From positions 1 through 37,884 of IMG/VR virus record IMGVR_UViG_3300025280_000077: DNA of 37,884 nucleotides; one strand, 5' to 3'. Under the pieces are notes generated by a model. It searched no databases, was not told where the DNA came from, and worked only from the letters and a program-made list of their open reading frames with translations. The translations under genes and the position numbers were made by a program. Below, piece by piece: positions 2,417 through 37,873 of the stretch (the first letter of the stretch is position 1; each line of letters opens with the position of its first letter). Source of the stretch: a virus.

Positions 2417-4996
2417 ATGGCAACGTTTAAAGTACAAGTAGAAGACATAACAGGTTCTGTAGGAGATGATACAGCAATAAGTAGTTGGCTACAAGACGGA
2501 GCTAAAGAAGTTATTAACTTTATACCTAAGCTAAGACTTGAGGAAGTAGCATCAACTTCTGTATTTGAAAATACTGTTGATGTTGAAGGAAAAAAAGTTT
2601 TAGGAGTTTTAAGAAAAGATGCGAACAATAGTAGTTTTCTTACTCCTTGTATAAAAGTTGCACCAACTAAAAAAGGAATCATACAAGACTCAAGCAACAT
2701 GGAATATGCAACAACAAGTGACCCTGCATATTGGGTTGATGGAGATACATTACAAGTATTTCCTACAAGTGCTTCTACAAACGATATGTCTTTAGTTCAT
2801 ATCAGTTTTGATTTTTCAGCAGTTACTTATGATGATTCTTCTATAACAAATTTCCCAGACGAAGCAGAACCAGCAGTTGTCTTGTATGCAACAAGAAATG
2901 CATTACAACGATTAATGACTGATACAATATCTAATTCAGACATTACTACTGCCTTAACTGCTGTGAATACAGAATTAGATGAAACCCAAACAGTCTGTGA
3001 TTTAATTAACACACAAGTAGATTCTGCTGTAGCAGAAATATTAGAAACAGTTACCACTGTAGATGATAATGTAGATACAGCTTTAGCAGCAATGAATACA
3101 TCAGCAGACAAAATTAATGCTGCAATAGAATTAGCTAATGCTGAGTTTGATAAAAGCGATGCGTTGTTAGACTTAGGAGAAACCGATACAGAAGGAGATA
3201 TTAATACAGCTTTAACTGCAATCAATACAGAATTAGATGAATTACAATCTATAGCAGATAATGTACATACAGAAGTTCAATTAATAAATGCTCAAGCAGA
3301 TTCTGCTCTTACAGAAATAGGATTAGCCAACGCTGAAGTAGATAAAATGGCAGCAGAAACTGGTTTAGATAATGCTGAATTAGATTTAGCTAAAGTAGAA
3401 TTAGCAGAAGCAGCAGTATTAGTTGATAGCGGTATAGATACAGCCACTGCAGCAATCGCTACAGCAGCAGGAAGAGTTAATACAGCAGTAGCACTTGCTA
3501 ATGGTCAATTTGATGCAGCGGTTTTAGAATCAGCTCAAGCAGAGTTAGAAGCAGATGATAGTGCAGTAGCAACTGCATTAGGATTAATTAACACTCAAGT
3601 AGATGCAGCCGTAGCTTTAATCACTGCAGACCCTGGTATCAACGATAGATTAACAGCTGCAGAAGCTGCAGTAGATTTAGCAGCAGCTGAAATAGTATTA
3701 GCAAAAGCAGAAGCTGCAGAGATAGCAACTCAGACAGATAATAGTGGAGATTTTGAAACAGCACTCGATGCGATTAATACAGCTGTAGATAGGTTTAGAG
3801 CTGATGGAGGAGACCCAGTATTATTTGGAGATGAGTCAGAATACACCACAGGTACAGGGTTTACTAAAGTAAAAGATGCATTAGATAATGCACAAAAAAT
3901 TGTTGATGATGGAGCTAATGCTCCAACTGGAAATGCAGCGGGGGATGCGGCAACTTATTTATATACTGATGAAGATGTAGAATTAATGAATGGTGCTTTA
4001 TCTATTGCACAAACAGAACAGAATAGAGCAAGAATCCATTTAGAAGAATTTTCAACTGCTGTTAATGGATTGTCAGCAGAGATAAATGGTTTTGCAACAG
4101 AAGTAACATCAAGAGTAAACTTTACTGGAGCAAAAGGACAAGCAGTACAAGCATATATTAGTACTGCACAAAATCGTTTATCAGAAGCACAGGCCGAAAT
4201 AGGAATAGCTAATGGATATAATTCTGCAATAGGAGCATATATTAATTCTGCACAGGGATATGCTGCTGAAGTACAAGCATATATAAGTACAACTCAAATG
4301 TTTATTAATACTGCATCAAATAGAATTAATGCTGGTAATGCATTTTTAGCAGAGGCGAATGCGAGTGCGGGGGAAGCACAATCTTATATGGGCGAAGTAA
4401 ATGCTAGAATATCTCAAATACAAGGACAGGTTAGTGTTGCTCAAGGATATATACAAAATGGAGCTGGATATTCAAGAGTTGCTGATGGATATGCAAAAGC
4501 AGCACAAGGATTTTTAGGAACAGCACAAAATTATTTAGCAGCAGGACAAGGGTTTGCGTCAGCTGCACAAGGGTATTCTAATGAGATACAAACTAAGTTA
4601 GGTATTGCTTCAGGGTATGGAAACGAAGTAAGTGCTAGACTAGGACAGGCCCAAGCTAAAAGAGCCGAATCTCAATCTAGGTTGGCAGCTGGGAATGCTT
4701 TCTTACAAGAAGCAACTGCAAGAGCTTCTGAAGTAAATTCTTATGGTACAGAAGTTCAACAAAGGTTGGCACAAGTAGGAGCACAAGGAAATGTTGCAGC
4801 AAGTTATGTTGCGGCAGCTCAAGGGTATGCAGGTGAAATACAATCTAAGATTGGTATTGCATCAGGATACTTACAAGAAATGCAAGGAAGACTAGCTGTA
4901 GATACCGCTAAATATAACTGGTATACTCAGCAGTATCAAATGGTAGATGCACGATATAAAGAATTTATACAATCACTAAGAGGAACAAATGCCTAA
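2417..4996 (+). CDS. Large helical tail/neck protein with adaptor-like N-terminus
   Basis: An 859-residue protein in two parts. Residues about 1-170 are a mixed alpha/beta domain containing AYWVDGDTLQVFP and a run toward PAVVLYATRNALQRLM, the same layout as the pair of small proteins encoded at 5159-5929. Residues about 170-830 are almost entirely Ala/Glu/Asn/Gln-rich helix with repeats: first a DTALAAMNT / AELELA type, then many short units such as AQGYAAEVQAYIS and AQNYLAAGQGFASAAQGYS. This predicts long coiled coils, perhaps an elongated tail or neck appendage anchored by the N-terminal adaptor domain. Starts 2 bases after the previous stop and ends overlapping the next small gene by 8 bases. 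Confidence 0.6.
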   Translation: MATFKVQVEDITGSVGDDTAISSWLQDGAKEVINFIPKLRLEEVASTSVFENTVDVEGKKVLGVLRKDANNSSFLTPCIKVAPTKKGIIQDSSNMEYATTSDPAYWVDGDTLQVFPTSASTNDMSLVHISFDFSAVTYDDSSITNFPDEAEPAVVLYATRNALQRLMTDTISNSDITTALTAVNTELDETQTVCDLINTQVDSAVAEILETVTTVDDNVDTALAAMNTSADKINAAIELANAEFDKSDALLDLGETDTEGDINTALTAINTELDELQSIADNVHTEVQLINAQADSALTEIGLANAEVDKMAAETGLDNAELDLAKVELAEAAVLVDSGIDTATAAIATAAGRVNTAVALANGQFDAAVLESAQAELEADDSAVATALGLINTQVDAAVALITADPGINDRLTAAEAAVDLAAAEIVLAKAEAAEIATQTDNSGDFETALDAINTAVDRFRADGGDPVLFGDESEYTTGTGFTKVKDALDNAQKIVDDGANAPTGNAAGDAATYLYTDEDVELMNGALSIAQTEQNRARIHLEEFSTAVNGLSAEINGFATEVTSRVNFTGAKGQAVQAYISTAQNRLSEAQAEIGIANGYNSAIGAYINSAQGYAAEVQAYISTTQMFINTASNRINAGNAFLAEANASAGEAQSYMGEVNARISQIQGQVSVAQGYIQNGAGYSRVADGYAKAAQGFLGTAQNYLAAGQGFASAAQGYSNEIQTKLGIASGYGNEVSARLGQAQAKRAESQSRLAAGNAFLQEATARASEVNSYGTEVQQRLAQVGAQGNVAASYVAAAQGYAGEIQSKIGIASGYLQEMQGRLAVDTAKYNWYTQQYQMVDARYKEFIQSLRGTNA

Positions 4997-13684: not shown

Positions 13685-15831
13685 AACGATTTGAATTGGG
13701 AGTTAATAATAAAGACTCTCAAAAAGATTTAGCTGATGGATTTTTAGCAGAAGCTACCAATGTTAATGTTGGACACATGGGCAAGATAATAACTTGCGGT
13801 CAATTTGCCAACCTTAGCAGTTCATATACATTAACCGATGATGGCAATGCTGGAATAGAAGCTGGATATGGGTTGTATAAATTTAGTAGTGACATAGTGC
13901 CTACTAGTGGGGCAGATGGTGGGGAATACTTAGCATATACTTCTCCTAAAGGGGAAGTATTTGTAAGTACTAACAGTTCTTTTGCTAGTGCTGCTCCTAT
14001 AGATTCCGCAACATTAATTGCATCGGGGAGTGCAACAGATGCTAAACCAGTATATTATTATGCAGAGGGAGGGTTACGTATTGCAGATTCAGATTTCAGT
14101 AATACAGGGAATGAACAAATAGCACTGGTTAGAATTGAAAGAACTAATGATGCTCACCCAGATGTATATGCCGCAGCAGTAACAGACCAAATGAAGTTTT
14201 ATAATGGTGGGTTGGCTGCACCAGTGACTGCAGATTTTGAATCGTTGGCTGCACCAGTAGATGAAGAAGACGGCGTAGAAGACGGTTCTGCTCCATCAAC
14301 AGGCGGAGCTGAATTTAGATTGAAGATGGCATCAACTGGAACTGGTAGTAGTAGTAGTAGAGACGATGGTCTGTGGCCAGAAGGTATTTATGCAGTAGGA
14401 ATTTCTTATGTATATTTTGGTGGACAAGAATCTTTATTACACAATCCTTTTTCTCCTATTACTATTGCAGATGCTCAATACTTTATAGCAAGTATGTCTA
14501 TTAAAGACGATAGCCTTAGTGCGTTCTTACAAGGGATGAGAATTTATGTAAAGAATTATAATAACCCAGATGATGAGTATAGATTGTTACTTGATATCAA
14601 TTTTGAATTAGGTTCAAGAGTATCATTAGCGGATGAGTATGATGTCTTCATAGATAAATCAGGATATGTAGTAACGAATGATACCAACAACCCTGATACT
14701 GATGCAACAGCTTACCATATTAAATCTCCTGCACTAGATACTTATTCTACAATTAATGGATTTCTACCAGAAGAAAAAGCAATTACATTTAATGGGGCTG
14801 AAGCATACGCATACAAAACAGCAGTTGTTGCAAATCAAAGAGCATTTGTAGGGAACATATTATATCCTAATGATGAAGGGGTTGTAAAGGAAATGGGAGA
14901 CAGGATACAATATACTCCTGTTAGAAAATACGATACTTTCCCACAAACTTATTATATAGATGTTGGTACCAATGATGGAGATAAGATTGTTAAACTAATA
15001 GAGTTTCAAGATAGGTTATTTGTATTTAAGGAAAACAAACTATTCGTTATTAATATTGCATCGGGTTCTGATGCTGGTTGGTATATAGAAGGAGAGTTTG
15101 AGAATAGAGGCATTAGTCATCCTGCTGCTGTAGCTAAATCAGATTTAGGATTAGTATGGGTAAATGAGTATGGAATGTTTAGTTTTGCAGACACTATAAA
15201 TAAATTAAGTACAGCTATAGACGAAGATACTTGGGCAACAAATATAGTTGGTACAAGCTGTGCAGTTGGATTTATACCAAAGAAAAATCAAATCATTGTA
15301 ATAGGAGATTGTAATTCTACCGATAGTAAAGGCTATCTATATGACATAGCAACAAAATCTTTTGCTAATATAAATGATACAAATGTTTTAGTAAGTAAGA
15401 AAACAACCAACCTTGTTCCATATAACCAAGAATTAGTATGTATGGAATTTACTACAGATGCTAGTAGTGATGTATATACCGTGAAACGATATGATACAGA
15501 TGCCAAATCACAGACAGTAGATATACAAACTCCAGAGTTTGATTTAGGAGAACCGTCTGTAGATAAAAAGTTTTATTCAGTGTACATGACACATAAGAAT
15601 GGAAATAACTTAGTTCTCACTGGAGGGTTTGAAGGAGCTGCTGCAACAACAGATATATTTGATTCTAATTCGTTGACCACTAATAGCACAATGACTGTTA
15701 CAAAGTTTGAAGTAGCTAGTGGATATAGAACTAAAAAGAAATCTTTACAATTAAAGATAGCTGGAACAGCAGAAGCAGATTTTGAATTACAAGATATGAG
15801 TATAATATTTAGGTCAAGGGGGGTACGATAA
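13660..15831 (+). CDS. Tail nozzle / stabilisation-like protein
   Basis: A 723-residue beta-rich protein. The start (YNIKRFELGVNNKDSQKDLA, then FLAEATNVNVGHMGKI) and the central IVKLIEFQDRLFVFKENKLF followed by GWYIEGEFENRGISHPAAVA and LGLVWVNEYGMF are typical of large podovirus tail-tip/nozzle proteins with propeller-like repeats, related in role to T7 gp12 and P22 gp10. Residues about 195-240 are acidic, Ser/Gly-rich linkers. The start lies inside the previous gene with AAAGGACTT upstream; the end shares one base with the next ATG. It would close the short tail. Confidence 0.6.
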   Translation: MAKQSYNIKRFELGVNNKDSQKDLADGFLAEATNVNVGHMGKIITCGQFANLSSSYTLTDDGNAGIEAGYGLYKFSSDIVPTSGADGGEYLAYTSPKGEVFVSTNSSFASAAPIDSATLIASGSATDAKPVYYYAEGGLRIADSDFSNTGNEQIALVRIERTNDAHPDVYAAAVTDQMKFYNGGLAAPVTADFESLAAPVDEEDGVEDGSAPSTGGAEFRLKMASTGTGSSSSRDDGLWPEGIYAVGISYVYFGGQESLLHNPFSPITIADAQYFIASMSIKDDSLSAFLQGMRIYVKNYNNPDDEYRLLLDINFELGSRVSLADEYDVFIDKSGYVVTNDTNNPDTDATAYHIKSPALDTYSTINGFLPEEKAITFNGAEAYAYKTAVVANQRAFVGNILYPNDEGVVKEMGDRIQYTPVRKYDTFPQTYYIDVGTNDGDKIVKLIEFQDRLFVFKENKLFVINIASGSDAGWYIEGEFENRGISHPAAVAKSDLGLVWVNEYGMFSFADTINKLSTAIDEDTWATNIVGTSCAVGFIPKKNQIIVIGDCNSTDSKGYLYDIATKSFANINDTNVLVSKKTTNLVPYNQELVCMEFTTDASSDVYTVKRYDTDAKSQTVDIQTPEFDLGEPSVDKKFYSVYMTHKNGNNLVLTGGFEGAAATTDIFDSNSLTTNSTMTVTKFEVASGYRTKKKSLQLKIAGTAEADFELQDMSIIFRSRGVR

Positions 15832-16205
15832 TGGCACTAATTAAAGGAAGAGCCGTAGCTGGAACAAGTAAGCAGGTTAAACGTGGACCTGTATCAATAC
15901 AGCAAATGAAGAACGGAGAAGAAATATTGCAGTACCACAAAGGAAGATTAAAAGTTATAAGAAAAGAGTTTGGAAAAATATTTGAATTAGAATTTAGCAG
16001 TCCAGAAATAAAAGAATTAAAAACATTTGCAAAGTATTCTGATATAAAAAAACCAGCAAGAGATGCTATTAAGATATTTTCTGGTGGGGTTAGAGCTGGT
16101 ACTGGTAAAAATTTCTATGGTTCTGTTCCTCCTGCTGGAGATTCAGATGTAAAAGTAGGAGAATTTGAAGTTGCTCCAGATGGAGAAAGCTTAATTTTAA
16201 AATAA
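15831..16205 (+). CDS. Hypothetical small virion protein
   Basis: A 124-residue basic protein: GEEILQYHKGRLKVIRKEFG (29-48), ELEFSSPEIKELKTFAKYSD helix, then a Gly-rich part and a beta end VKVGEFEVAPDGESLIL. It begins on the last base of the nozzle-like gene. No family recognised; tail association is inferred from position only. Confidence 0.5.
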   Translation: MALIKGRAVAGTSKQVKRGPVSIQQMKNGEEILQYHKGRLKVIRKEFGKIFELEFSSPEIKELKTFAKYSDIKKPARDAIKIFSGGVRAGTGKNFYGSVPPAGDSDVKVGEFEVAPDGESLILK

Positions 16206-16206
16206 T

Positions 16207-16335
16207 ATGAATAATAACACACATATTAATAGGGTCTTTACAACCGTTGTTCTTGACTTGGCCGAGGAGAAATTTGTAAATTTAACCCAAACATTCTTTA
16301 AGAAAAAAGAAGGAGAATATCTAGATGTCTTTTAA
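16207..16335 (+). CDS. 42-residue hypothetical protein
   Basis: ATG 16207 follows the previous stop by one base and the frame ends at TAA 16333-16335, overlapping the next gene by 11 bases. Sequence is mixed helical (VFTTVVLDLAEEKFVNLTQ) with a Lys run (FFKKKEGEYLDVF). No clear binding site, so it probably depends on reinitiation. It neatly fills the gap between its neighbours. Confidence 0.5.
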   Translation: MNNNTHINRVFTTVVLDLAEEKFVNLTQTFFKKKEGEYLDVF

Positions 16336-17671
16336 TCCTAGAGTCCATAAACAGAATAATATTAAATATAGCACAGCTCATACGAATGCTCTTCTTAATT
16401 TAGCACAAACACAATCAGCTGAGACTATCATACTTGAGAATATGCTTCAATCAAGATTGGACAAAATTGAGAAAGCTAAAAAGAAATCTAAAAAATTTGG
16501 AAGATGGTCAAAAATTCTAAGCAAAGTTATTCCAGGGAAAATAGATGATGCTATATTTGGCCTTGCAGATGCAGCAAATAAAGATAGGTTAAGGGCTAAA
16601 GCTTATGGGGGTATTGACCAAAACAAAGTAACTTTATTAAAAGATGCTGCAAGAGAGGTTGATTCACAAGCTAGAAAATTCTCAAGAGAGCTAATGAAAG
16701 ATATGAAGTTCTCTGCGAGTATGAAAAAATTAGTATCTGAAAAGATGTTGTCTCAACTTGCAGAACTTCCTGAAATTAAAGCCCTTAAAGAATCCTTTAA
16801 TGACCTATCGATTGTAGAAAGGTTAAAGCCTAAGAACTTAATAGACTTTGTAAAAGGTTCAGGTAAAATTACAGGACAGTTTATGAAAAATCCTGTAAAG
16901 TGGATGAAACGATATGAGAAAGACTCAGTGACTGGAGAACTATTATTTAAAGGAACATTAGATTATAAAAAATATTTAGATGCAACAACTTTTGACGAAA
17001 AGAATAAATGGTACACAAGCTATGAAAGAAAGCGTAAAGAAGCTGGATTGTCTAGTGATTTATTTCTTCAGGGAAAAGGGTATGATTCTGGAGGGTTATC
17101 TTATACATCATTTTCAGAAGTAGAAGAACCATTAGGAGAAAATTTTATGATAGAGGAAACTCCTCTAGATACGTTTGAACCTTGGGAAGCTCCAGCTCCT
17201 AGGACAGCATTAGATGTTATTAATGAAGAAGCTGAAATTTCAGACTTAATGATAGATGGTTCTTTATTAGAAGATATTAAAGTAGCGACTCCTGCTCCTA
17301 CTAGACCAGGTTTAGAATTTGCTAGAGAGATTGAAGGTATGGAAGGAGATTTACCAATAGACAAAACAGCTCCTTTAGATATGTTTAAACCTTTGGATGA
17401 ATCACCTGCTAAACCTATACCACTTCAACCTGATAGACCAGAGATAGCACTAGCACAAGAAGAAGAAGATTATGGATTACCTACAGATATAAACTTAGGA
17501 CTACAAACCCCGATTGGTGGTGATGTATATGGTACATCTTATATGAATGATGAAATGGAATCACAAGGGGTTTATAACCAAACAAATCCACAAGAAGAAT
17601 TTGATAGTTGGAATAGAAGAAAAAAATTTATGAGACCAAATCCTAATATGTTTCAAAGAGGTAGAAGATAA
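16325..17671 (+). CDS. Internal/ejection protein candidate 1
   Basis: A 448-residue protein with a helical, basic N-terminal two thirds (SRLDKIEKAKKKSKKFGRWS near 41-60; repeated Lys/Asp helices to about 240) and a Pro/Glu-rich, disordered end (about 250-448, several PxxP and LDxFxP pieces). AAGGAG at 16310-16315 precedes the start. It opens a run of four large genes at the end of the late operon, where podoviruses carry proteins ejected with DNA. No family recognised. Confidence 0.5.
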   Translation: MSFNPRVHKQNNIKYSTAHTNALLNLAQTQSAETIILENMLQSRLDKIEKAKKKSKKFGRWSKILSKVIPGKIDDAIFGLADAANKDRLRAKAYGGIDQNKVTLLKDAAREVDSQARKFSRELMKDMKFSASMKKLVSEKMLSQLAELPEIKALKESFNDLSIVERLKPKNLIDFVKGSGKITGQFMKNPVKWMKRYEKDSVTGELLFKGTLDYKKYLDATTFDEKNKWYTSYERKRKEAGLSSDLFLQGKGYDSGGLSYTSFSEVEEPLGENFMIEETPLDTFEPWEAPAPRTALDVINEEAEISDLMIDGSLLEDIKVATPAPTRPGLEFAREIEGMEGDLPIDKTAPLDMFKPLDESPAKPIPLQPDRPEIALAQEEEDYGLPTDINLGLQTPIGGDVYGTSYMNDEMESQGVYNQTNPQEEFDSWNRRKKFMRPNPNMFQRGRR

Positions 17672-26055: not shown

Positions 26056-26319
26056 TTAAAATGGTATCTTTTCTTCAGATACCGATGTAGTCTTTTTACT
26101 AGATGAACTTCGATGAGATTCATATTCTTCTACAGTCTCAAACTTTAGGGATATATAATCATTCCCATTCCTTGCTTTCTTTTCCCACCCAGAGATGTAT
26201 CCTTCAACACCATTGAACTCTACTGGCCCTGTTGTTTTCCAACAAGGTCTGTTTGGGTTGTCCCCAACATCGTTAAAGAATAAGTTCGCACTGTTTGGTT
26301 GTGGTTTCCAATCGCCCAT
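26056..26319 (-). CDS. Small SSB-like / DUF736-like protein
   Basis: An 87-residue protein: GPVEFNGVEGYISGWEKKAR (about 31-50) then NGNDYISLKFETVEE resembles the beta-strand core of DUF736-type proteins (inGkeyxisxWxkxxxxGxxYlsl). The end is a Ser-rich linker and EEKIPF, like the acidic Ile-Pro-Phe tip by which bacterial SSB recruits partners. It may bind single-stranded DNA made for replication or recombination, with the tip calling host repair proteins. It stands alone at the end of the recombination operon. Assignment from pattern only. Confidence 0.5.
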   Translation of the reverse strand: MGDWKPQPNSANLFFNDVGDNPNRPCWKTTGPVEFNGVEGYISGWEKKARNGNDYISLKFETVEEYESHRSSSSKKTTSVSEEKIPF

Positions 26320-31775: not shown

Positions 31776-31807
31776 CATATACGAACCCAATCAATAAAGG
31801 TTCCCAA
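31776..31807 (-). promoter_or_regulatory. Repeated promoter-like element (copy c)
   Basis: On the - strand TTGGGAACC (31807-31799), 17 bases, then TATATG (31781-31776). Lies 25 bases upstream of the HA-domain gene start and probably drives the long - strand operon beyond it. Conserved spacing with ten other copies. Confidence 0.7.
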
Positions 31808-31816
31808 TTATTATTA

Positions 31817-32091
31817 AGGCATTGTGTATTGCCTATGTTTATACTCATACACATGGAATAATTTTAATCGGATTTCCATGGTCGCTAGTCGGTATTACAT
31901 ATAATCGTTGCATCCTAGATTTGCACTAGGCGTTATAACCCCAGTCAGCACTTCTGTCCGAACCTTAATATTGTGAGCCTACAATCAGTTGTTAATCATG
32001 CCATCCTACTTCACAATCAATCTCCTTTTAATATAGGCTCAATCATATTTCAAATATCTTTTTTTCTTTGGGCTGGGTTTTACCCCAGCCC
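31817..32091 (-). ncRNA. Candidate structured RNA between - strand genes
   Basis: This part of the 349-base gap (31752-32100) has no ORF of note but nested pairing. TCGGA 31868-31872 faces TCCGA 31957-31961; inside it 31884-31898 faces 31935-31949 with 12 of 15 pairs; inside that is the perfect hairpin CCTAG-7-CTAGG (31914-31930). Four of the 12 pairs are G-U only if the - strand is read; read as + strand RNA fewer pairs form, which favours - strand transcription. Further arms: TGAGCCTA 31974-31981 with TAGGCTCA 32034-32041, AGGCA/TGCCT at 31817-31834, and a GC-rich hairpin at 32070-32091. No known RNA class is recognised. Confidence 0.45.
32070..32091 (-). terminator. Strong GC hairpin after the peptidase-like gene
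   Basis: GGGCTGGG (32070-32077) and CCCAGCCC (32084-32091) form a perfect 8-bp stem with a 6-base loop, ten bases past the stop of the gene at 32101-32496. On the - strand it is followed by an A-rich, not T-rich, stretch, so it is not a classical intrinsic terminator in that direction; on the + strand TGTGTTTATTTATTT follows. It may end or protect the - strand transcript, or stop + strand readthrough. Confidence 0.45.
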
Positions 32092-32100
32092 TGTGTTTAT

Positions 32101-32496
32101 TTATTTAATCCAGTATGAATTACCACACGACTTCCTACAATCCCAAACATCATACATTATTCCGTCTTTTATGCAAGTCAAATGACCAGCAGTAAGAACT
32201 ATGTATGTGCCTTCGGTCTTGTAATTTTTCAAACGAACCTTTTTGTTATGACCATTCTTCATGGGACTATGTTTTTTCCAGCCTATTGAAATCAGGTATG
32301 GTTCGTAAGTCTTTTTAGCATTCGGAAGGTATCCAGTAGTAATTGCTAAATTACACAAATCCGTAAAGACTTTCATATAATCAAGACCTGTTGCGTGTGC
32401 TATTGCTCTAATAACACAATCAAAAGTTATGTCTTTTTTATATTTAGTAGAGAAATACTTTTCCCTACCACCAAACGACTTTTTAAATCTTATCAT
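32101..32496 (-). CDS. Papain-like cysteine peptidase-fold protein
   Basis: A 131-residue protein: ITFDCVIRAIAHATGLDYMK (23-42) gives a Cys27 at the start of a helix; near the end TYIVLTAGHLTCIKDGIMYD gives His105 on a strand, with Asp116 or Asp119 (VWDCRK) after it. Cys-helix, strand-His, strand-Asp is the order of C39/papain-like peptidases and similar phage proteins (DCVxRAIA ... GHLxxIKDGxxYDTWD). It may cut a host or phage protein or an isopeptide/amide bond. It is a single-gene unit with its own promoter element and leader hairpin upstream. Activity is not proven by sequence alone. Confidence 0.55.
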   Translation of the reverse strand: MIRFKKSFGGREKYFSTKYKKDITFDCVIRAIAHATGLDYMKVFTDLCNLAITTGYLPNAKKTYEPYLISIGWKKHSPMKNGHNKKVRLKNYKTEGTYIVLTAGHLTCIKDGIMYDVWDCRKSCGNSYWIK

Positions 32497-32540
32497 TTAG
32501 CCTCCTTATTTTAAGGGTTAACAATTTTAAAATAGCTATC

Positions 32541-32558
32541 GTAAACATTTCTGCTTAC
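32541..32558 (-). promoter_or_regulatory. 5' leader hairpin (copy b)
   Basis: Read on the - strand, GTAAGCA, loop GAAA, TGTTTAC: a 7-bp stem with one G-U pair and a GNRA-type tetraloop, starting about six bases past the -10-like hexamer. The related hairpin at 36362-36381 keeps the stem with G-C in place of G-U and a different loop, so pairing is conserved. The following bases (CGATAG, then TATTTTAAAATT) are also shared. Confidence 0.6.
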
Positions 32559-32563
32559 TACTA

Positions 32564-32595
32564 CTTATATGCCACAAACCTAAAAAGGTTCCCAA
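32564..32595 (-). promoter_or_regulatory. Repeated promoter-like element (copy b)
   Basis: On the - strand TTGGGAACC (32595-32587), 17 bases, TATAAG (32569-32564). It drives the peptidase-like gene at 32101-32496 through a leader of about 65 bases that contains the hairpin at 32541-32558. Confidence 0.75.
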
Positions 32596-32599
32596 CTAT

Positions 32600-32885
32600 T
32601 TTTTTCTCCTTCATAAATACTAGTGGGGGCTTTTAGATATAATTGCTATGCAATAACTAATTAGATATTCTTATTAGTGTCCGCAGACATCATATATAAC
32701 ATTTTCTCTAACTATTTACTACCCTAACAAACACTCTTTCGCAAAGAGTGGCGACAATATCCACCACCCCCAAGTTTTCAAATATAATTTTTAGGGACAC
32801 CACATCAACGAACTAATATGAAAAGCAGATATAATCAATATACTACTAACCCCTTTTAATGTGGGTTGTATGACATAGTGTCCCT
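32600..32885 (-). ncRNA. Hairpin-rich gap, candidate structured 3' region or RNA
   Basis: The gap between genes (32497-32884) holds no convincing ORF. Between the promoter copy and the stop at 32885 there are: AGGGACAC 32793-32800 with GTGTCCCT 32878-32885 (perfect, starting at the stop codon); inside it CCACAT 32800-32805 with ATGTGG 32859-32864; perfect CACTCTTT-3-AAAGAGTG at 32732-32750; TGTC-4-GACA at 32678-32689; and ATTGC-3-GCAAT at 32642-32654. The density of perfect stems in such AT-rich DNA suggests a structured RNA or 3' untranslated region of the upstream - strand operon. Confidence 0.45.
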
Positions 32886-33412
32886 TATTTTTTATTTTTA
32901 TATGGATTAATTTTGTAAACAATATTTTTTCCATTCATTTTAAATTTTTCAGCTTGGTTGTTTCTATTTTGCAACACCCAATCTAAAATAATAGCATTCA
33001 CATTAACAGACATTGTATCTGTGGTTCTTACGCCTAATTTTCTAGCAAGTTTACCTGCATAACTTATTGCATTCTTAAGTTCTTTTTCTTTAAAGTATCC
33101 TTGATAATCTTCTCTAAATAATTCAAGTGCATTGGTAATTTTTCTATCAATTTCCATAAAATCTTCTTTTGAGAAATCATAATTTCTTTTATTGTGTCTT
33201 GAATAGAAATTTTTAAAACTTCTAATTACCTGACTTGCTCTATCAATCCTTTTATTAGCGATATATAAAAAATTGTCTTTCTTGCCAAGCGGATTATCCA
33301 CATCTTTAATCACATCTCTATTTTCGTGATGAATGTCTTTAAATACTTTTTCTAACTCTTTAATCAAAGTATCTTTTTTCCCATACCTATCAGTCCATGT
33401 TGTTTTACTCAT
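32885..33412 (-). CDS. Hypothetical basic helical protein
   Basis: A 175-residue Lys/Asn-rich protein, nearly all helical (KDTLIKELEKVFKDIHHENR; IDRASQVIRSFKNFYSRHNK; AISYAGKLARKLGVRTTD). Last gene of the - strand operon that starts near 34841, joined by an ATGA overlap. Nucleic-acid binding is plausible by charge; no family recognised. Confidence 0.5.
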   Translation of the reverse strand: MSKTTWTDRYGKKDTLIKELEKVFKDIHHENRDVIKDVDNPLGKKDNFLYIANKRIDRASQVIRSFKNFYSRHNKRNYDFSKEDFMEIDRKITNALELFREDYQGYFKEKELKNAISYAGKLARKLGVRTTDTMSVNVNAIILDWVLQNRNNQAEKFKMNGKNIVYKINPYKNKK

Positions 33413-33594
33413 TTTTTCTCCAATTTATGTGGACTATCAAACTCGTGTTTGTCATCTTCTTCTAAACATTCATCGCAAACAAACATTGTATTTTCAATGT
33501 CATAGTTAGTGCTTCCAGTAAAAGCACTATCTGTTTGTGGTAATTGTTCTTGACACTCAATACAATGTATTTCTTTTATTTCTTTATATATCAT
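33409..33594 (-). CDS. Zinc-ribbon small protein
   Basis: A 61-residue protein with Cys11-x2-Cys14 (HCIECQEQL) and Cys40-x2-Cys43 (FVCDECLEED), a clear two-knuckle zinc ribbon with a 25-residue loop and an acidic end. Both gene ends overlap neighbours by 4 bases. Likely an adaptor or regulator; function unknown. Confidence 0.65.
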   Translation of the reverse strand: MIYKEIKEIHCIECQEQLPQTDSAFTGSTNYDIENTMFVCDECLEEDDKHEFDSPHKLEKK

Positions 33595-33818
33595 TTTTTC
33601 TCCTTAGTTTCTTTTAAAGAAACACTTGCTAAGTCGCCACAATCTTCACAAAAGTCGCATTCTTCATTTGGTAAATCTAAACTCTTTGCGTATAAATAAT
33701 AGTCGCCTTCTTCTTCCGATTTCATAGAGTTGGAATAAACGAAACAACAAGTTATTATTTCATCACTACCACAATCATCACAAACCCATATCTCTTTACT
33801 CATTTTTTCTTTACTCAT
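33591..33818 (-). CDS. Zinc-ribbon small protein
   Basis: A 75-residue protein: VCDDCGSDEIITCC near 12-25, and CDFCEDCGDLAS near 54-65, giving two CxxC knuckles. Acidic between them. AAGGAG before the first ATG decides the start (MSKEKM...) over the internal MSKEIW. It precedes a second zinc-ribbon gene by ATGA overlap, so the two may act together or be diverged copies. Confidence 0.6.
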   Translation of the reverse strand: MSKEKMSKEIWVCDDCGSDEIITCCFVYSNSMKSEEEGDYYLYAKSLDLPNEECDFCEDCGDLASVSLKETKEKK

Positions 33819-33827
33819 ATTATCTCC

Positions 33828-34172
33828 TTATTCTTTCTCTCTCCAATCTCTATTTGAAACAAAGATATGACTATACATTACTTTGATAATGTTTTTCATG
33901 TCTTGTTCATCTCGTAGTGGCCAACATTGTGTCCAACATTTATTCAGTCTTACTTTATACAGACTATCGCCCATACTTGCAAGTTCTAAACTATAATCAG
34001 TTAGATTTTCTATTCTTTTATCTTGACTTAGTTTATCTTGCAGTCCAATGTTTAAAAGATATTGTAGTTCTAAGGTTCTGTCTTTTTCTTTGACACCTTC
34101 ATATCTTTTCCCATTGATAATCGTATCTACTGAGTTCTCTTTCATTAAGTTATCAAACATGTCTAATTTCAT
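33828..34172 (-). CDS. Hypothetical protein
   Basis: A 114-residue protein, helical, with a CWTQCWPLRDEQ motif near 79-90 (Cys-x3-Cys between Trps). The ATG overlaps the preceding TGA (ATGA) and continues the coupled chain. No family recognised. Confidence 0.5.
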   Translation of the reverse strand: MKLDMFDNLMKENSVDTIINGKRYEGVKEKDRTLELQYLLNIGLQDKLSQDKRIENLTDYSLELASMGDSLYKVRLNKCWTQCWPLRDEQDMKNIIKVMYSHIFVSNRDWREKE

Positions 34173-34321
34173 TTCTCCTCCTTGTTCACATTGATTTCTA
34201 CTCTATCGTTTATAGACAAATCAACCAGACATATTGGATAACTTTCATTATCTACAAATATTCTAACTTCTTCGTTTTTATCTATGTCTTTTAATATTCC
34301 TATTAGTTCATCTACTTTCAT
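34169..34321 (-). CDS. MKVxELI-type tiny protein, paralogue 1
   Basis: A 50-residue protein from ATG 34321 to TGA 34169: MKVDELIGILKDIDKNEEVR, a hydrophobic strand (IFVDNE; CLVDLSI), then NDRVEINVNKEEK. It is clearly related to the next two or three proteins upstream (MKVKRLINTL..., MTVKELINEL...). The form helix, then EV strand, then DRVEI resembles widespread phage proteins beginning MxVxELIxxLxxLPxDAEV of unknown role. GGAGG and an ATGA junction link it to both neighbours. Confidence 0.65.
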   Translation of the reverse strand: MKVDELIGILKDIDKNEEVRIFVDNESYPICLVDLSINDRVEINVNKEEK

Positions 34322-34473
34322 TTTTCCTCCATTGTAATTTCTACTCTATCATCTACACCTAAAATAGTTTCTAATGTTAAACTTTCTAAATTGTAATCTT
34401 TTAATAAATATAAAACTACTTCCTTGTTTTTATCTAACTTGTTTAAGGTATTAATTAATCTTTTTACTTTCAT
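34318..34473 (-). CDS. MKVxELI-type tiny protein, paralogue 2
   Basis: A 51-residue protein from ATG 34473 to TGA 34318: MKVKRLINTLNKLDKNKEVV, then LYLLKDYNLESLTLETILG and DDRVEITMEEK. Shares start, KLDKN(E)EV turn and DRVEI end with paralogues 1 and 3, pointing to tandem duplication. ATGA overlaps both sides. Confidence 0.65.
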   Translation of the reverse strand: MKVKRLINTLNKLDKNKEVVLYLLKDYNLESLTLETILGVDDRVEITMEEK

Positions 34474-34607
34474 TTTTCCTCCAGTATTTTTATTGCTTTT
34501 TTAATTTCGTATGTAGCTTCTACATTATTTTCTAATCGTTCTAATAAATCTTTTAATATCCAAATAACATCTACTATATTGGAATAAGGGTAAGTTATTT
34601 TAGTCAT
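34470..34607 (-). CDS. 45-residue helical protein
   Basis: From ATG 34607 to TGA 34470: MTKITYPYSNIVDVIWILKD then a helix (LLERLENNVEATYEIKKAIK). GGAGGAAAAATGA forms both its ribosome site and the junction with the upstream gene. It does not share the DRVEI end and is not an obvious member of the paralogue group. Function unknown. Confidence 0.55.
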   Translation of the reverse strand: MTKITYPYSNIVDVIWILKDLLERLENNVEATYEIKKAIKILEEK

Positions 34608-34711
34608 TTTTCCTCCAATTTTATCTTTTGAACATCAAGTAATAATTCGTCTATATTTAACTCTCTGTTACTTATTGCTGTTGCTATTTGTTCTCTTCTT
34701 TTTTCGTTCAT
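34604..34711 (-). CDS. 35-residue helical protein
   Basis: From ATG 34711 (AAAGGAT upstream) to TGA 34604: MNEKRREQIATAISNRELNI then DELLLDVQKIKLEEK, an amphipathic helix throughout. It overlaps the end of the upstream gene by 44 bases in another frame and the next start by ATGA. Small size keeps confidence moderate. Confidence 0.5.
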   Translation of the reverse strand: MNEKRREQIATAISNRELNIDELLLDVQKIKLEEK

Positions 34712-34841
34712 TAGTTATCCTTTTGTTTATATTACTTTCACACTCGTGGGAATTGTCAAATTTGTCAAGGTGTTCCCAAGTGTTTGATTTATCATATTCA
34801 TCTGCTTTTTCTTTAACACTTTTCCAATCTGTATTTTCCAT
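34668..34841 (-). CDS. 57-residue charged protein
   Basis: From ATG 34841 to TAA 34668, first gene after promoter copy d, with GGAG seven bases before the start. The sequence is polar and helical (WKSVKEKADEYDKSNTWEHL) with a basic end (KRITNERKKKRTNSNSNK). Function unknown. Its 3' end overlaps the next gene by 44 bases. Confidence 0.55.
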   Translation of the reverse strand: MENTDWKSVKEKADEYDKSNTWEHLDKFDNSHECESNINKRITNERKKKRTNSNSNK

Positions 34842-34864
34842 TTATTCTCCTTTTGTTTCTATTA

Positions 34865-34896
34865 CTCTAACTACTGAAACTAAATTAAGTTCCCAA
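34865..34896 (-). promoter_or_regulatory. Repeated promoter-like element (copy d)
   Basis: On the - strand TTGGGAACT (34896-34888), 17 bases, TTAGAG (34870-34865). Directly after the stop of the gene at 34897 and 24 bases before ATG 34841, so it starts the operon 34841 to 32885. Confidence 0.7.
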
Positions 34897-35091
34897 CTAT
34901 TCAACTCCTATTAAAATTACTTCGCCATTAAGTTCATAACCACTCTGTCCTTTGTTAGCAACTTCAACTCTATCTATCCAATAATTTTCCATGTTGTAAT
35001 TAGGATTATCAGTATTGTCTTCTAATACTCTAACACTTAGAGTTTTATCTTCTATCTTATTGAGTTCATTTATTAATTCTTTTACTGTCAT
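34897..35091 (-). CDS. MKVxELI-type tiny protein, paralogue 3
   Basis: A 64-residue protein: MTVKELINELNKIEDKTLSV, RVLEDNTDNPNYNMENYWI, DRVEVANKGQSGY, then a strand LNGEVILIG. It has the same order as paralogues 1 and 2 with an added C-terminal strand pair, and may be the full-length form of the family. It is coupled by ATGA to the upstream related gene. Confidence 0.65.
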   Translation of the reverse strand: MTVKELINELNKIEDKTLSVRVLEDNTDNPNYNMENYWIDRVEVANKGQSGYELNGEVILIGVE

Positions 35092-35336
35092 TTTTCCTCC
35101 AACTTTTTAAGTCTTTCTAAATGATTTTGATTTTGTCTAACACTTTTAAATATTGATTTTATTTCAAAACCAAAATCTACCCAACCCTCATCATTTATCC
35201 CATTAGAACAAATAACATGTGGACTTCCTAAATTAATATCATATTCATCTGTCCACTCTGCCCCTATAACATAAAATCCTATTGGATTATCGTCATCAAC
35301 ATTTTTTAGTATTTCTTTTAATTCTTTTGCTTTCAT
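35088..35336 (-). CDS. Related MKAKEL-type protein
   Basis: ATG 35336 (MKAKELKEILKNVDDDNPIG) is preferred over the ATG at 35351 because GGAG lies nine bases before it. The 82-residue product keeps the helix and D-D-N turn of the paralogue group, then beta segments (FYVIGAEW; HVICSNG; GWVDFGFEIKSIF) and a basic helix. It is probably a more distant family member. Driven by promoter copy e. Confidence 0.55.
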   Translation of the reverse strand: MKAKELKEILKNVDDDNPIGFYVIGAEWTDEYDINLGSPHVICSNGINDEGWVDFGFEIKSIFKSVRQNQNHLERLKKLEEK

Positions 35337-35368
35337 ATTTATACTCTCCATTTTGTTCGTTCTATTTA

Positions 35369-35400
35369 CTCTAACATCAGAAACTAATAAAAGTTCCCAA
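35369..35400 (-). promoter_or_regulatory. Repeated promoter-like element (copy e)
   Basis: On the - strand TTGGGAACT (35400-35392), 17 bases, TTAGAG (35374-35369). Lies between the stop at 35406 and ATG 35336; starts the two-gene unit 35336-34897. Confidence 0.7.
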
Positions 35401-35405
35401 TTATT

Positions 35406-35639
35406 TTATTGAGATAGTTCTTTTATTTGTTCATCTAATAAAACTTTAATATCTAATAATGTATCTAATTCAAAAACATCTCTTATTAAATATTTAGTAT
35501 TAAATATACTATTAATTAAATATTGTCCTTTGTCTGTTAGTTCGTTTTCATCAAAAATTGGTAAACCCTCTAAGAAATTAAAAGATTTCTGATTTTTAAT
35601 TAGTTCTTTATGCAGACTTTGATAATGTTTTTCACTCAT
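35406..35639 (-). CDS. Hypothetical helical protein
   Basis: A 77-residue protein: HYQSLHKELIKNQKSFNFLE, GQYLINSIFNTKYLIRDVFE, LLDIKVLLDEQIKELSQ. All helical, acidic/basic mixed. No strong ribosome site is visible (GTGAGTATAAA before ATG). It follows a 390-base leader after promoter copy f. No family recognised. Confidence 0.5.
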   Translation of the reverse strand: MSEKHYQSLHKELIKNQKSFNFLEGLPIFDENELTDKGQYLINSIFNTKYLIRDVFELDTLLDIKVLLDEQIKELSQ

Positions 35640-36027
35640 TTTATACTCACTTTCTTTGTTGTTATATTCTTAAACCTAAATAGCGTTGGCACAGTTAATC
35701 CAAACTTTAAAATGAGCATACTCTTACACGCAAGTCCTTATTGTTGAACATATGTCAATTCCTTTTAAATAGCCCTTTTACTATAACGCAAACCTATTAC
35801 GAGTTATTACTATTTAAGTTTAATTTTAAGTCATTTTTATTAGGTAGTGAACAACTAACGAAGAAAAAGTAATTACTCAATTTCCTTTTAGCGTCTTTTC
35901 TCATTTAAAGCAGTTTTAATCTTGCAAGTTTCTTAAAATTGAGGCCTTTAATCCAAACTAATGTCTTCAAAACCTTTCTTATATAAATGAATTCACTACC
36001 TAATTTTTCAAATATCTTTTCTATTTA
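35640..36027 (-). other. Long leader without a convincing gene
   Basis: Between promoter copy f and the gene at 35406-35639. Only very short - strand frames occur: ATG 35719 to a TGA overlapping the next ATG (27 codons, weak binding site), and a 14-codon frame with AAAGGAA upstream near 35750. Neither is strong. Composition is AT-rich with no long inverted repeats that I can see. It may hold leader peptides, a regulatory RNA or decayed genes. Confidence 0.35.
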
Positions 36028-36059
36028 CTCTAACATCCTACACTTTAAAAGGTTCCCAA
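36028..36059 (-). promoter_or_regulatory. Repeated promoter-like element (copy f)
   Basis: On the - strand TTGGGAACC (36059-36051), 17 bases, TTAGAG (36033-36028). Spacer nearly identical to copy a (TTTTAAAGTGTAG), showing recent duplication. It lies just past the stop of the gene at 36075. Confidence 0.7.
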
Positions 36060-36074
36060 CTATTTTATTTTGTC

Positions 36075-36320
36075 TTAAAATAGTTTCATATCTTTTCCAA
36101 AGAACCTCAAACAACTATCAATTTCGTCTACGAATTGATAATCGTATGGATTATCCCAATCAAGTTCGTCTAATAGTTTAGAGGCCTCTGTTCGTGCCTC
36201 ACTTACTTTCTTATCAACAACCTCGTTAAGTGCTTCAATTTTTTGAATTAATTCACTAACTCTTTCTTGTTGTTTTTTGCTTAACTCTTTGTAGGGTTTT
36301 AGCTTTTTATCTTTTTTCAT
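36075..36320 (-). CDS. Small coiled-coil protein
   Basis: An 81-residue protein: basic start (KKDKKLKPYKELSKKQQERV), then a coiled coil (ELIQKIEALNEVVDKKVSEA) and an acidic end with YDYQFVDEIDSCLRFFGKD. GGAAAT lies upstream of the ATG. Single-gene unit with promoter copy a. No family recognised. Confidence 0.55.
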   Translation of the reverse strand: MKKDKKLKPYKELSKKQQERVSELIQKIEALNEVVDKKVSEARTEASKLLDELDWDNPYDYQFVDEIDSCLRFFGKDMKLF

Positions 36321-36361
36321 TAGATTATTTCCTTTTTTAATTTAATTTTAAAATAACTATC

Positions 36362-36381
36362 GTAAGCATTTTTGTGCTTAC
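36362..36381 (-). promoter_or_regulatory. 5' leader hairpin (copy a)
   Basis: Read on the - strand, GTAAGCA, loop CAAAAA, TGCTTAC: a perfect 7-bp stem beginning about six bases after the -10-like hexamer, so it would sit at the 5' end of the transcript. The shared downstream bases CGATAG and TATTTTAAAATT match copy b at 32541. Confidence 0.6.
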
Positions 36382-36386
36382 TACTA

Positions 36387-36418
36387 CTTATATGCTCTAC
36401 ACTTTAAAAGGTTCCCAA
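36387..36418 (-). promoter_or_regulatory. Repeated promoter-like element (copy a)
   Basis: On the - strand TTGGGAACC (36418-36410), 17 bases, TATAAG (36392-36387), followed by TAGTAGTAAG and the leader hairpin. Diverges from the + strand copy g 43 bases away, making 36320-36523 the switch between the - and + strand blocks. Confidence 0.75.
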
Positions 36419-36460
36419 CTATTTTAAAAAACTTTATTTTTATGACGACAAATAAAATAA

Positions 36461-36492
36461 ATGGGAACAAAATAATTTTTAATACATATAAT
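36461..36492 (+). promoter_or_regulatory. Repeated promoter-like element (copy g)
   Basis: ATGGGAACA (36461-36469), 17 bases, perfect TATAAT (36487-36492). First + strand copy; precedes the gene at 36523. The leader GTAAAACAATTTAAGGAATA is shared with copies h and i. Confidence 0.75.
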
Positions 36493-36522
36493 AAGGGTAA
36501 AACAATTTAAGGAATAAAAAAA

Positions 36523-36792
36523 ATGACAAAAAAACACTTTGAAAAAATGGCAAAATTAATTAAAAATAATACAAGTATTTATGTTGATAGAAAAAATAAT
36601 ATTACAGAAAATCAAATAGAATACAATGATTTTATAAATGATTTAATAGAATACTTTGAACAAGAAAATATTAATTTTAATAAAGATAAATTTATTAAAG
36701 CCTTAGGTAATTTATCTTTATTAAATAAGGATAATATTGAAACAAATAATATTATTATAGACGATATACAAAATAAATGGGAACCTTTTTAA
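36523..36792 (+). CDS. Hypothetical AT-rich accessory protein
   Basis: An 89-residue Asn/Lys/Ile/Asp-rich protein: KKHFEKMAKLIKNNTSIYVD, NDFINDLIEYFEQENINF, then LGNLSLLNKDNIETNN. AAGGAAT lies upstream of the ATG. The last codons KWEPF and TAA contain the ATGGGAACC box of the next promoter. Very A-rich codon use compared with the late genes. No family recognised. Confidence 0.5.
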   Translation: MTKKHFEKMAKLIKNNTSIYVDRKNNITENQIEYNDFINDLIEYFEQENINFNKDKFIKALGNLSLLNKDNIETNNIIIDDIQNKWEPF

Positions 36793-36808
36793 TTATAGGT
36801 AGTAAGAG
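36777..36808 (+). promoter_or_regulatory. Repeated promoter-like element (copy h)
   Basis: ATGGGAACC (36777-36785) inside the end of the preceding gene, 17 bases, TAAGAG (36803-36808). Precedes the gene at 36840. Confidence 0.7.
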
Positions 36809-36839
36809 TAGATGTAAAACAATTTAAGGAATAAAAAAA

Positions 36840-37025
36840 ATGACTAATAAAAATATTACGATTGAACACATTGACACAAACAGAACTATAAAAGAAATAT
36901 TTGAAAACATGTTTAAACAATTCCCAAGTGCAAAACATAATATTTATATGTATATGCACAGCGACAAAAAGCATGACTACTTTAAAGATAAATTTACTAA
37001 AGAATATATTAGAGCAATAAAATAA
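36840..37025 (+). CDS. Hypothetical small accessory protein
   Basis: A 61-residue protein: ITIEHIDTNRTIKEIFENMF then KQFPSAKHNIYMYMHSDKKH and a basic end. AAGGA at 36826-36830 gives the binding site. One-gene unit between two promoter copies. No family recognised. Confidence 0.5.
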   Translation: MTNKNITIEHIDTNRTIKEIFENMFKQFPSAKHNIYMYMHSDKKHDYFKDKFTKEYIRAIK

Positions 37026-37027
37026 AT

Positions 37028-37059
37028 ATGGGAACTTTATTTGTTATAGGTAGTAAGAT
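37028..37059 (+). promoter_or_regulatory. Repeated promoter-like element (copy i)
   Basis: ATGGGAACT (37028-37036), 17 bases ending ATAGGTAG, TAAGAT (37054-37059). Precedes the gene at 37094. Confidence 0.7.
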
Positions 37060-37093
37060 AAGGGTAAAACAATTTAAATAAGGAATAAATAAT

Positions 37094-37306
37094 ATGATAT
37101 TAATTAAAGAATATGAAAAAAATAAAAAAGCAATAAATAGAGAAATATTTATAAAAATATTAAAAGATTATAAAGACGCTCTAAATGAAATTAATACAAT
37201 TCAAAAACTATTATTATTAAATAAAGAATTGGAAACTATATTAAATGAACATCTACCTAAACATTTTAAAGTAAAAGACTTGACAACTTTAACAAAAATA
37301 TTATAA
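37094..37306 (+). CDS. Hypothetical small helical accessory protein
   Basis: A 70-residue protein made of helices: EYEKNKKAINREIFIKILKD, YKDALNEINTIQKLLLLNKE, LETILNEHLPKHF. Ribosome site AAGGAAT. No family recognised; could form a dimer. Confidence 0.5.
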   Translation: MILIKEYEKNKKAINREIFIKILKDYKDALNEINTIQKLLLLNKELETILNEHLPKHFKVKDLTTLTKIL

Positions 37307-37310
37307 ATAA

Positions 37311-37342
37311 ATGGGAACTTTTATAATTATAGGTAGTAAGAT
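37311..37342 (+). promoter_or_regulatory. Repeated promoter-like element (copy j)
   Basis: ATGGGAACT (37311-37319), 17 bases ending ATAGGTAG, TAAGAT (37337-37342). Precedes the gene at 37378. Spacer almost the same as copies h and i. Confidence 0.7.
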
Positions 37343-37377
37343 AAGCATGAAACCAATTAATATAAGGAACTAATAAT

Positions 37378-37701
37378 ATGATTATGACATTAACAGAGCA
37401 CGATTTTATAAACTTAACGAATGAATTTTCACAGCATAAAGATAATTTCTCTTATGAGGGTAAAAAAGCACTCTTCAATTATCTTGAAGAACTTGAAGAA
37501 GAAGATTTTCAGATAGAGTTTGATTATATTTCTTTGTGTTGTGATTATTCAGAATATGATAATTTAGATGATTTATTTGAAGCTTATGATTTATCGCTTC
37601 TTATGATAAAGAACAAAACAGAAGTAATTGAATTTTATAAATATGACTTAGATAATTTTAAAACTAATGATTATAAAAGTTATATTATTAGGAACTTTTA
37701 A
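37378..37701 (+). CDS. Hypothetical acidic accessory protein
   Basis: A 107-residue strongly acidic protein: FINLTNEFSQHKDNFSYEGK, LFNYLEELEEEDFQIEFDYI, SLCCDYSEYDNLDDLFEAYD, then DLDNFKTNDYKSYIIRNF. The acid and aromatic content resembles DNA-mimic or host-inhibitor proteins of phages, but this is only composition. AAGGA lies upstream; ATG 37384 is an alternative start. The end RNF-TAA carries a TTAGGAACT box like those of the repeated promoter. Confidence 0.5.
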   Translation: MIMTLTEHDFINLTNEFSQHKDNFSYEGKKALFNYLEELEEEDFQIEFDYISLCCDYSEYDNLDDLFEAYDLSLLMIKNKTEVIEFYKYDLDNFKTNDYKSYIIRNF

Positions 37702-37716
37702 TCATATTAATATTTT

Positions 37717-37737
37717 AGGGTATACTTGGTATACCTT
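37717..37737 (+). promoter_or_regulatory. Perfect palindrome, operator-like
   Basis: GGTATAC (37719-37725), TTG, GTATACC (37729-37735), extending to 9 pairs with a G-T and an A-T. It lies 16 bases after the stop at 37701 in a 183-base stretch without a clear gene (37702-37884). The symmetry and size suit a dimeric repressor site, possibly over a weak promoter copy at 37688-37719; a transcript-ending hairpin is the alternative, though no T-run follows. Confidence 0.5.
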
Positions 37738-37841
37738 AGGGCGTTTAAGTGGCTTGTAGGCCTATTGTAGAGCTTTAAAAGACTATTATATTACTATGGG
37801 TTGGGAATAACTTGTGAGTAATAAAAAAGATATATATAAAG

Positions 37842-37873
37842 TTGGGAACCTTAGCCCCCTTAGATAGTAGTAA
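37842..37873 (+). promoter_or_regulatory. Repeated promoter-like element (copy k)
   Basis: TTGGGAACC (37842-37850), 17 bases, TAGTAA (37868-37873) at the right edge. CCCTTA (37857-37862) and TAAGGG (37871-37876) can form a 6-bp hairpin around it. It should drive a + strand gene starting beyond the window. Confidence 0.6.

Follow-up and report, generated by a model that had tools for sequence, protein, structure and literature searches.

The right arm of the 37,884-base virus record IMGVR_UViG_3300025280_000077, which was analysed in full and is referred to here as the window, carries eleven TGGGAAC elements, each followed at one uniform distance by a hexamer (TGGGAAC, 18 nucleotides (nt), hexamer; equivalent to GGAACY-N17-hexamer). 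A large uncultured group of marine phages shares this promoter, and these elements may well be the early-region promoters of that group, of the type read by extracytoplasmic function (ECF, group 4) sigma factors. The analysis establishes that the sites exist, are conserved, keep a rigid spacing and lie just upstream of genes led by Shine–Dalgarno sequences. The motif points to an ECF-type sigma as the reader and, less firmly, the gene content of the phages suggests that this sigma is supplied by the host.

A sequence-only reading had described eleven copies with a single spacing, confined to the right arm, and all eleven were recovered at the positions it gave. With 2.97 copies of TGGGAAC expected, the window contains 17, and no shuffle out of 100 reaches that number. 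The longer pattern TGGGAAC-N17-[GA]T[AT] occurs 11 times, always in the right arm and never in the left 31 kb, and shuffled sequence does not produce it equally often (11 copies against 0.3, maximum 3, in 200 shuffles). The six other TGGGAAC occurrences, at 9483, 12985, 13390, 18662, 29194 (+) and 34778 (−), lack the second element. A motif search of the genome and its relatives gave the same set: a 55-position matrix trained on relatives only, with the window phage left out, returned precisely the ten complete copies (26–43 bits), the next-best site scoring 5.0 (37.9 kb) and the best of 20 shuffles 10.4. The eleventh copy, promoter k, lies too near the window end for matrix scoring and is intact in a sister contig.

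This sister contig (G001; 43,635 bases) has the same right arm as the window and extends beyond the right end of the window into terS, terL, portal and capsid genes; because its other end overlaps the left end of the window, the map is circular or circularly permuted. A diverged relative (G003; Erf 63% and TerL 86% identical) has about ten promoter copies, whose −10 hexamers are cleaner, and a TerL search of IMG/VR returned about 70 close relatives. Among cultured phages, TerL matches were only about 25% identical, with no close relative, and the motif is absent from phages that share only an Erf (about 30% identical). The family consensus is AAAATA(A/G)T-TGGGAAC-TTTTT..-(C/A)(G/A)TATAA, with the geometry GGAAC-N16-(C/A)GTATAA. 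Among 607 one-mismatch boxes, those with a good remaining motif differ only in the first two letters, and GGAAC is invariant. Divergent relatives mostly have TTGGAAC, and also CT-, AT- or ACGGAAC, followed at unchanged spacing by CGTATAA(G) or AGTTA(T/A)A. The conservation of box core and spacing across a large phage group thus lends strong support to the earlier proposal that the copies are phage promoters whose −35 (GGAAC) resembles that of ECF sigma factors.

The constant part of the second element is (C/A/T)(G/A)T(A/T), at and just before the hexamer. With the matrix, 67 good sites were in register and none had the downstream block shifted by ±1, although this matrix was seeded on the register and selection without the −10 is the fairer test. 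When sites were picked on the box, the tracts and a following Shine–Dalgarno-led open reading frame (ORF), blind to the −10, [GA]T stood at the predicted position in 56 of 63 family sites and 34 of 37 distant ones, and the T at −12 was near-invariant (60/63 and 35/37). The same sites do not support the sigma70-type −10 that had been read into the hexamer, which is a poor match to that element: A(−11) and T(−7), the sigma70 master bases, occur jointly at chance level (7/63 and 6/37). Generic sigma70-like sites are no more frequent in the region than in shuffles (64 against 66.1). The commonest hexamer is TATAAG, with G at −7.

Published rules for ECF promoters include stringent −35 and −10 elements, a rigid spacer, a pocket that accepts T(−12) in ECF sigmas generally and the reading of G at −7 by sigmaH (PMC6411747); EcfG promoters have the form GGAAC-N17-20-GTT (PMC6599016) and SigW promoters TGAAAC-N16,17-CGTA (PMC2375139). 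Like the promoters of alphaproteobacterial EcfG, mycobacterial SigH and Bacillus subtilis SigW, the phage set combines a GGAAC/GAAAC −35 core with a rigid 16–17-nt spacer and a CGT(A/T) −10 in which the T at −12 is essential and change is little tolerated. It differs in that the base after CGT, the third of the −10, is mostly A, as in the CGTA of SigW, with T, the base in the GTT of EcfG and SigH, in about a quarter; in the conservation of ATAA and of a downstream TA; and in belonging to a lytic-looking phage group in which no sigma was identified and for which we infer the ECF assignment. An ECF-type sigma is the best-supported reader because the motif fits these rules and the MotA promoters of phage T4 show the opposite pattern. 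On host RNA polymerase, region 4 of such a sigma would read GGAAC and region 2 would read (C/A)GT with its near-invariant T at −12, the rigid 16-nt spacer fixing the two sigma domains; the upstream AAAATA tract would probably be an UP element, and the RNA would start about 10 nt beyond the T.

Which genome supplies the reader was approached through the phage proteins. Profiles for Sigma70_r2, r4, r4_2 and sigma70-ECF had no match in 14 family records, and the ECF profile had none in 15 distant promoter-bearing records, control genomes being positive in both cases. PF00940, for single-subunit RNA polymerases, was silent in the phages and silent also in all control genomes. The early proteins of the window detected in the distant promoter-bearing loci are a Cas4-like and a 115-amino-acid (aa) nuclease, an SSB-like protein, a 64-aa MazG-like protein and proteins of 107 and 68 aa, plus three weak matches; because none of these looks like a sigma factor, a host factor is favoured. 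Most small conserved early proteins (those of 121, 114, 111, 87 and 83 aa) had no match in the distant phages carrying the promoter, and Pfam, PHROG and PDB profile searches with the conserved small proteins gave no regulator. AlphaFold models of the 121- and 111-aa proteins, of low confidence (pLDDT 66 and 62), gave neither a sigma-fold match nor a regulator in Foldseek. The large conserved dark proteins of 1361, 723 and 420 aa had no usable match, the PDB search covering the 1361-aa protein only. A host-supplied sigma is favoured because the phages yielded no sigma gene and the promoter-bearing groups do not all share a plausible regulator.

We consider it possible, if doubtful, that the phages encode their own specificity factor, such as a very diverged ECF-like sigma, an adaptor resembling sigma region 4 or a virion-carried protein, which would read GGAAC-N16-CGT with the host core polymerase. 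The motif is multi-copy solely in this phage group and strictly conserved across it, and a sigma factor of their own is encoded by phages phiEco32 and 7-11 (PMC4331800). The promoters of that sigma likewise form a phage-specific set, with copies throughout the genome that relatives also retain; they consist of a single TAATGTATA-like motif, whereas the window phage has two boxes and yielded no sigma of its own. The failure of the sigma profiles counts against a phage-encoded reader, as do the absence of most small conserved early proteins from the distant phages searched, the lack of a sigma fold in the two low-confidence models and the short length of the well-conserved early proteins, of which Erf and the Cas4-like nuclease alone exceed 150 aa. 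If the reader is nevertheless phage-encoded, it would be a new kind of specificity factor, as it is invisible to sigma profiles.

Several observations weigh against a host ECF sigma. The argument from sigma absence is limited, as the distant loci are partial and small proteins diverge fast, and a diverged sigma may be hidden among the small phage proteins. Two TerL scans covering 84,980 genomes returned no relative and no host, leaving no host sigma to examine, and tRNA genes, sought as host clues, were not found. Single matches in other contigs look like chance, and neither the cultured Pelagibacter phage HTVC010P nor the scanned part of the SAR116 phage HMO-2011 has such sites; the motif is therefore bound to one lineage, which a phage-encoded reader predicts equally. 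The ATAA conserved after the T resembles a TATAA −10. Furthermore, ECF sigmas are usually kept inactive by anti-sigmas and would be an odd choice for early genes.

The resemblance to TATAA bears on an explanation that we regard as unlikely, in which the primary-sigma holoenzyme of the host uses a TATAA-like −10 and an activator of phage or host origin, bound at TTGGGAAC, replaces the −35 contact, either by sigma appropriation as with MotA and AsiA in T4 or as a class II activator. Many copies do have TATAAG- or TATAAT-like hexamers and an A-rich tract upstream, and 6 of 80 spacers contain an inverted GTTCC(CA) that would form a dyad with the box. Most −10s lack the sigma70 master bases, however, the spacing is exactly that of ECF promoters and the analysis identified no conserved protein that binds DNA; annotation of the early proteins revealed no known regulator, although no search aimed at MotA or AsiA was run. 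T4 middle promoters also place a phage-specific box upstream of the −10, in many copies and before pre-late genes, but their box is centred at −30 and that of the window phage lies at the −35 position. The MotA box tolerates change, lies 12 ± 1 bp from the −10 and needs a strong sigma70 −10 (PMC2988021), the reverse of an invariant box with a loose, non-sigma70-like −10, making MotA-like activation a poor fit. Of the readers proposed from the sequence alone, an unusual sigma factor is the best fit; profile searches revealed none encoded by the phages.

Very improbable, in our assessment, is a host primary sigma with an unusual −35 preference, for which the sites would be strong but ordinary host-type promoters. 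The main holoenzyme of the host is the usual reader of early promoters in phages, and the TerL scans pointed to no host; we are aware of no primary sigma with a preference for GGAAC, a rigid spacer is atypical of primary-sigma promoters, and the absence of such sites from HTVC010P and the scanned part of HMO-2011 also counts against it. T4 early promoters resemble the window set in being many, strong, similar to one another, preceded by A-rich tracts and located in the early region; they are improved sigma70 promoters, whereas the window set lacks TTGACA and the sigma70 −10 master bases. T7-type promoters, which form one continuous block of about 20 bp, do not match two boxes with a poorly conserved spacer; an archaeal BRE/TATA reading was set aside on the Shine–Dalgarno leaders and DnaA boxes, and alphaproteobacterial RpoH-type promoters because the invariant part here is GGAAC and not TTG.

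The sequence-only reading had every copy but k preceding a gene or operon start. Nine of these ten copies do so, a start codon following 13–63 nt from the inferred start site, and promoter k does so in the sister contig; promoter e, with a 384-nt leader that contains no clear ORF, is the exception. In window, family and distant group alike, leaders to Shine–Dalgarno-led start codons cluster at 13–35 nt. The arrangement centres on a divergent control region at 36.4 kb, between promoters f and g. From it, minus-strand promoters serve small early ORFs and, farther on, the Erf and Cas4-like genes, and plus-strand promoters serve small ORFs and then, via k, lead toward packaging and head genes. Gene content makes it plausible that the genes behind TGGGAAC promoters are early.

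On the minus strand, promoter a (31776–31806; TGGGAAC at 31806–31800, CGTATATG around the −10; 40.6 bits) lies 20 nt, from inferred start site to ATG, before the gene at 31751–30993. Its 252-aa product combines two Helicase-associated (HA) domains without a helicase and was found only in the window phage and its sister. Promoter b (32564–32594; TGGGAAC...CATATAAG; 43.3 bits) precedes a 131-aa gene (32496–32101) through a leader with a small hairpin, and promoters resembling it stand before the corresponding operon in five relatives (G003, G004, G005, G007 and G008). Promoter c (34865–34895; TGGGAAC...AGTTAGAG; 39.8 bits) has a 19-nt leader and opens a series of small early ORFs from 34841 downward. 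Promoters d (35369–35399; 26.0 bits) and e (36028–36058; 26.1 bits) both read TGGGAAC...TGTTAGAG; the former has a 13-nt leader to an 87-aa ORF (35351–35088), and the next ORF after the latter is one of 77 aa (35639–35406). Promoter f (36387–36417; TGGGAAC...CATATAAG; 42.9 bits) serves an 81-aa ORF (36320–36075) through a leader hairpin like that of b. The hairpin common to b and f (GTAAGCA..TGCTTAC-like; about 32540–32560 and 36362–36381, minus strand) is followed by GATAGYTATTTTAAAA.

On the plus strand, promoter g (36462–36492; TGGGAAC...CATATAAT; 27.2 bits), divergent to f, has a 26-nt leader to an 89-aa ORF (36523–36792). Next come promoter h (36778–36808; TGGGAAC...AGTAAGAG; 34.0 bits) before a 61-aa ORF (36840–37025), and promoters i (37029–37059; 30.4 bits) and j (37312–37342; 37.8 bits), both TGGGAAC...AGTAAGAT, before ORFs of 70 aa (37094–37306) and 107 aa (37378–37701). 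Promoter k (37843–37873; TGGGAAC...AGTAGTAA) is directed out of the window; in the sister contig it leads, after a 27-nt leader, into a 93-aa gene and then the phosphoesterase and terS–terL–portal–capsid genes on the same strand.

A candidate structured RNA of about 165 nt (32776–32610, minus strand; fold z −4.0), shaped as a long rod with an internal hairpin, lies between operon c and promoter b, just upstream of b. Covariation across 10 relatives is clear: in 37 pairs, 98% of cells are paired, 7 pairs have double changes, and there are 24 double-change cells against 9.4 in shuffles. The candidate has no Rfam match. It is present in G001, G003–G006 and G008, of which a covariance model re-finds G005, G006 and G008; the model finds none in the distant promoter-bearing loci searched.

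Other noncoding features were observed around the promoters. The leader of e (35640–36025, minus strand) contains a 12–13-bp inverted repeat (TTAGGTAGTGAA/TTCACTACCTAA, about 150 nt apart), with folding that is not unusual overall (z −0.5). About 250 nt of noncoding sequence (31815–32062, minus strand) separate a strong terminator (32070–32091) from promoter a, with a weak folding signal (z −1.7) and no match in the relatives searched. Inverted GTTCCCA in some spacers gives either a TGGGAAC-N8/9-GTTCCCA dyad or overlapping divergent promoters (G003 25535/25557, G004 3493/3515, G006 17374, 21353 and 23090, and L127). Some promoters are paired exactly 80 bp apart (G003 26058–26138, G004 4017–4097, G007 15894–15974, G008 16256–16336 and G012 28–108); between such pairs, several relatives have a DnaA-box match, TTATCCACA, and some also TTATACACA, a possible DnaA-dependent origin, and the window phage has a single such DnaA-box match, at 33294. 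Outside the window, a conserved noncoding region of about 400 bp in the sister contig (L051, about 14480–14930, minus strand), upstream of the phosphoesterase–terS–terL operon, has repeated (T)AGGGTWACCCTAATA units in many relatives and may be a late control region, an origin or a packaging site. In G003, a candidate GroES-like co-chaperonin seen by eye adjoins Erf (L053:871–1140, minus strand) and was not seen in the window phage.

Our literature searches brought up no phage whose early promoters are known to depend on an ECF-type sigma. Promoters of this type are familiar in bacteria; what appears new, in the literature searched, is that a phage group relies on one as its standard early promoter although no sigma could be detected in the phages. 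At 26–43 bits in the window, the motif is specific enough to spot members of the group in contigs and for tests in metatranscriptomes. We suggest tentatively that this marine phage group ties its early programme, and perhaps its entry into late-gene expression, to an ECF stress sigma of the host rather than to the housekeeping sigma. If so, the sites would serve as pointers to the host and to its sigma factor, infection would succeed only when, or be sped because, that stress regulator is active, and phage development would be directly coupled to the stress state of the host.

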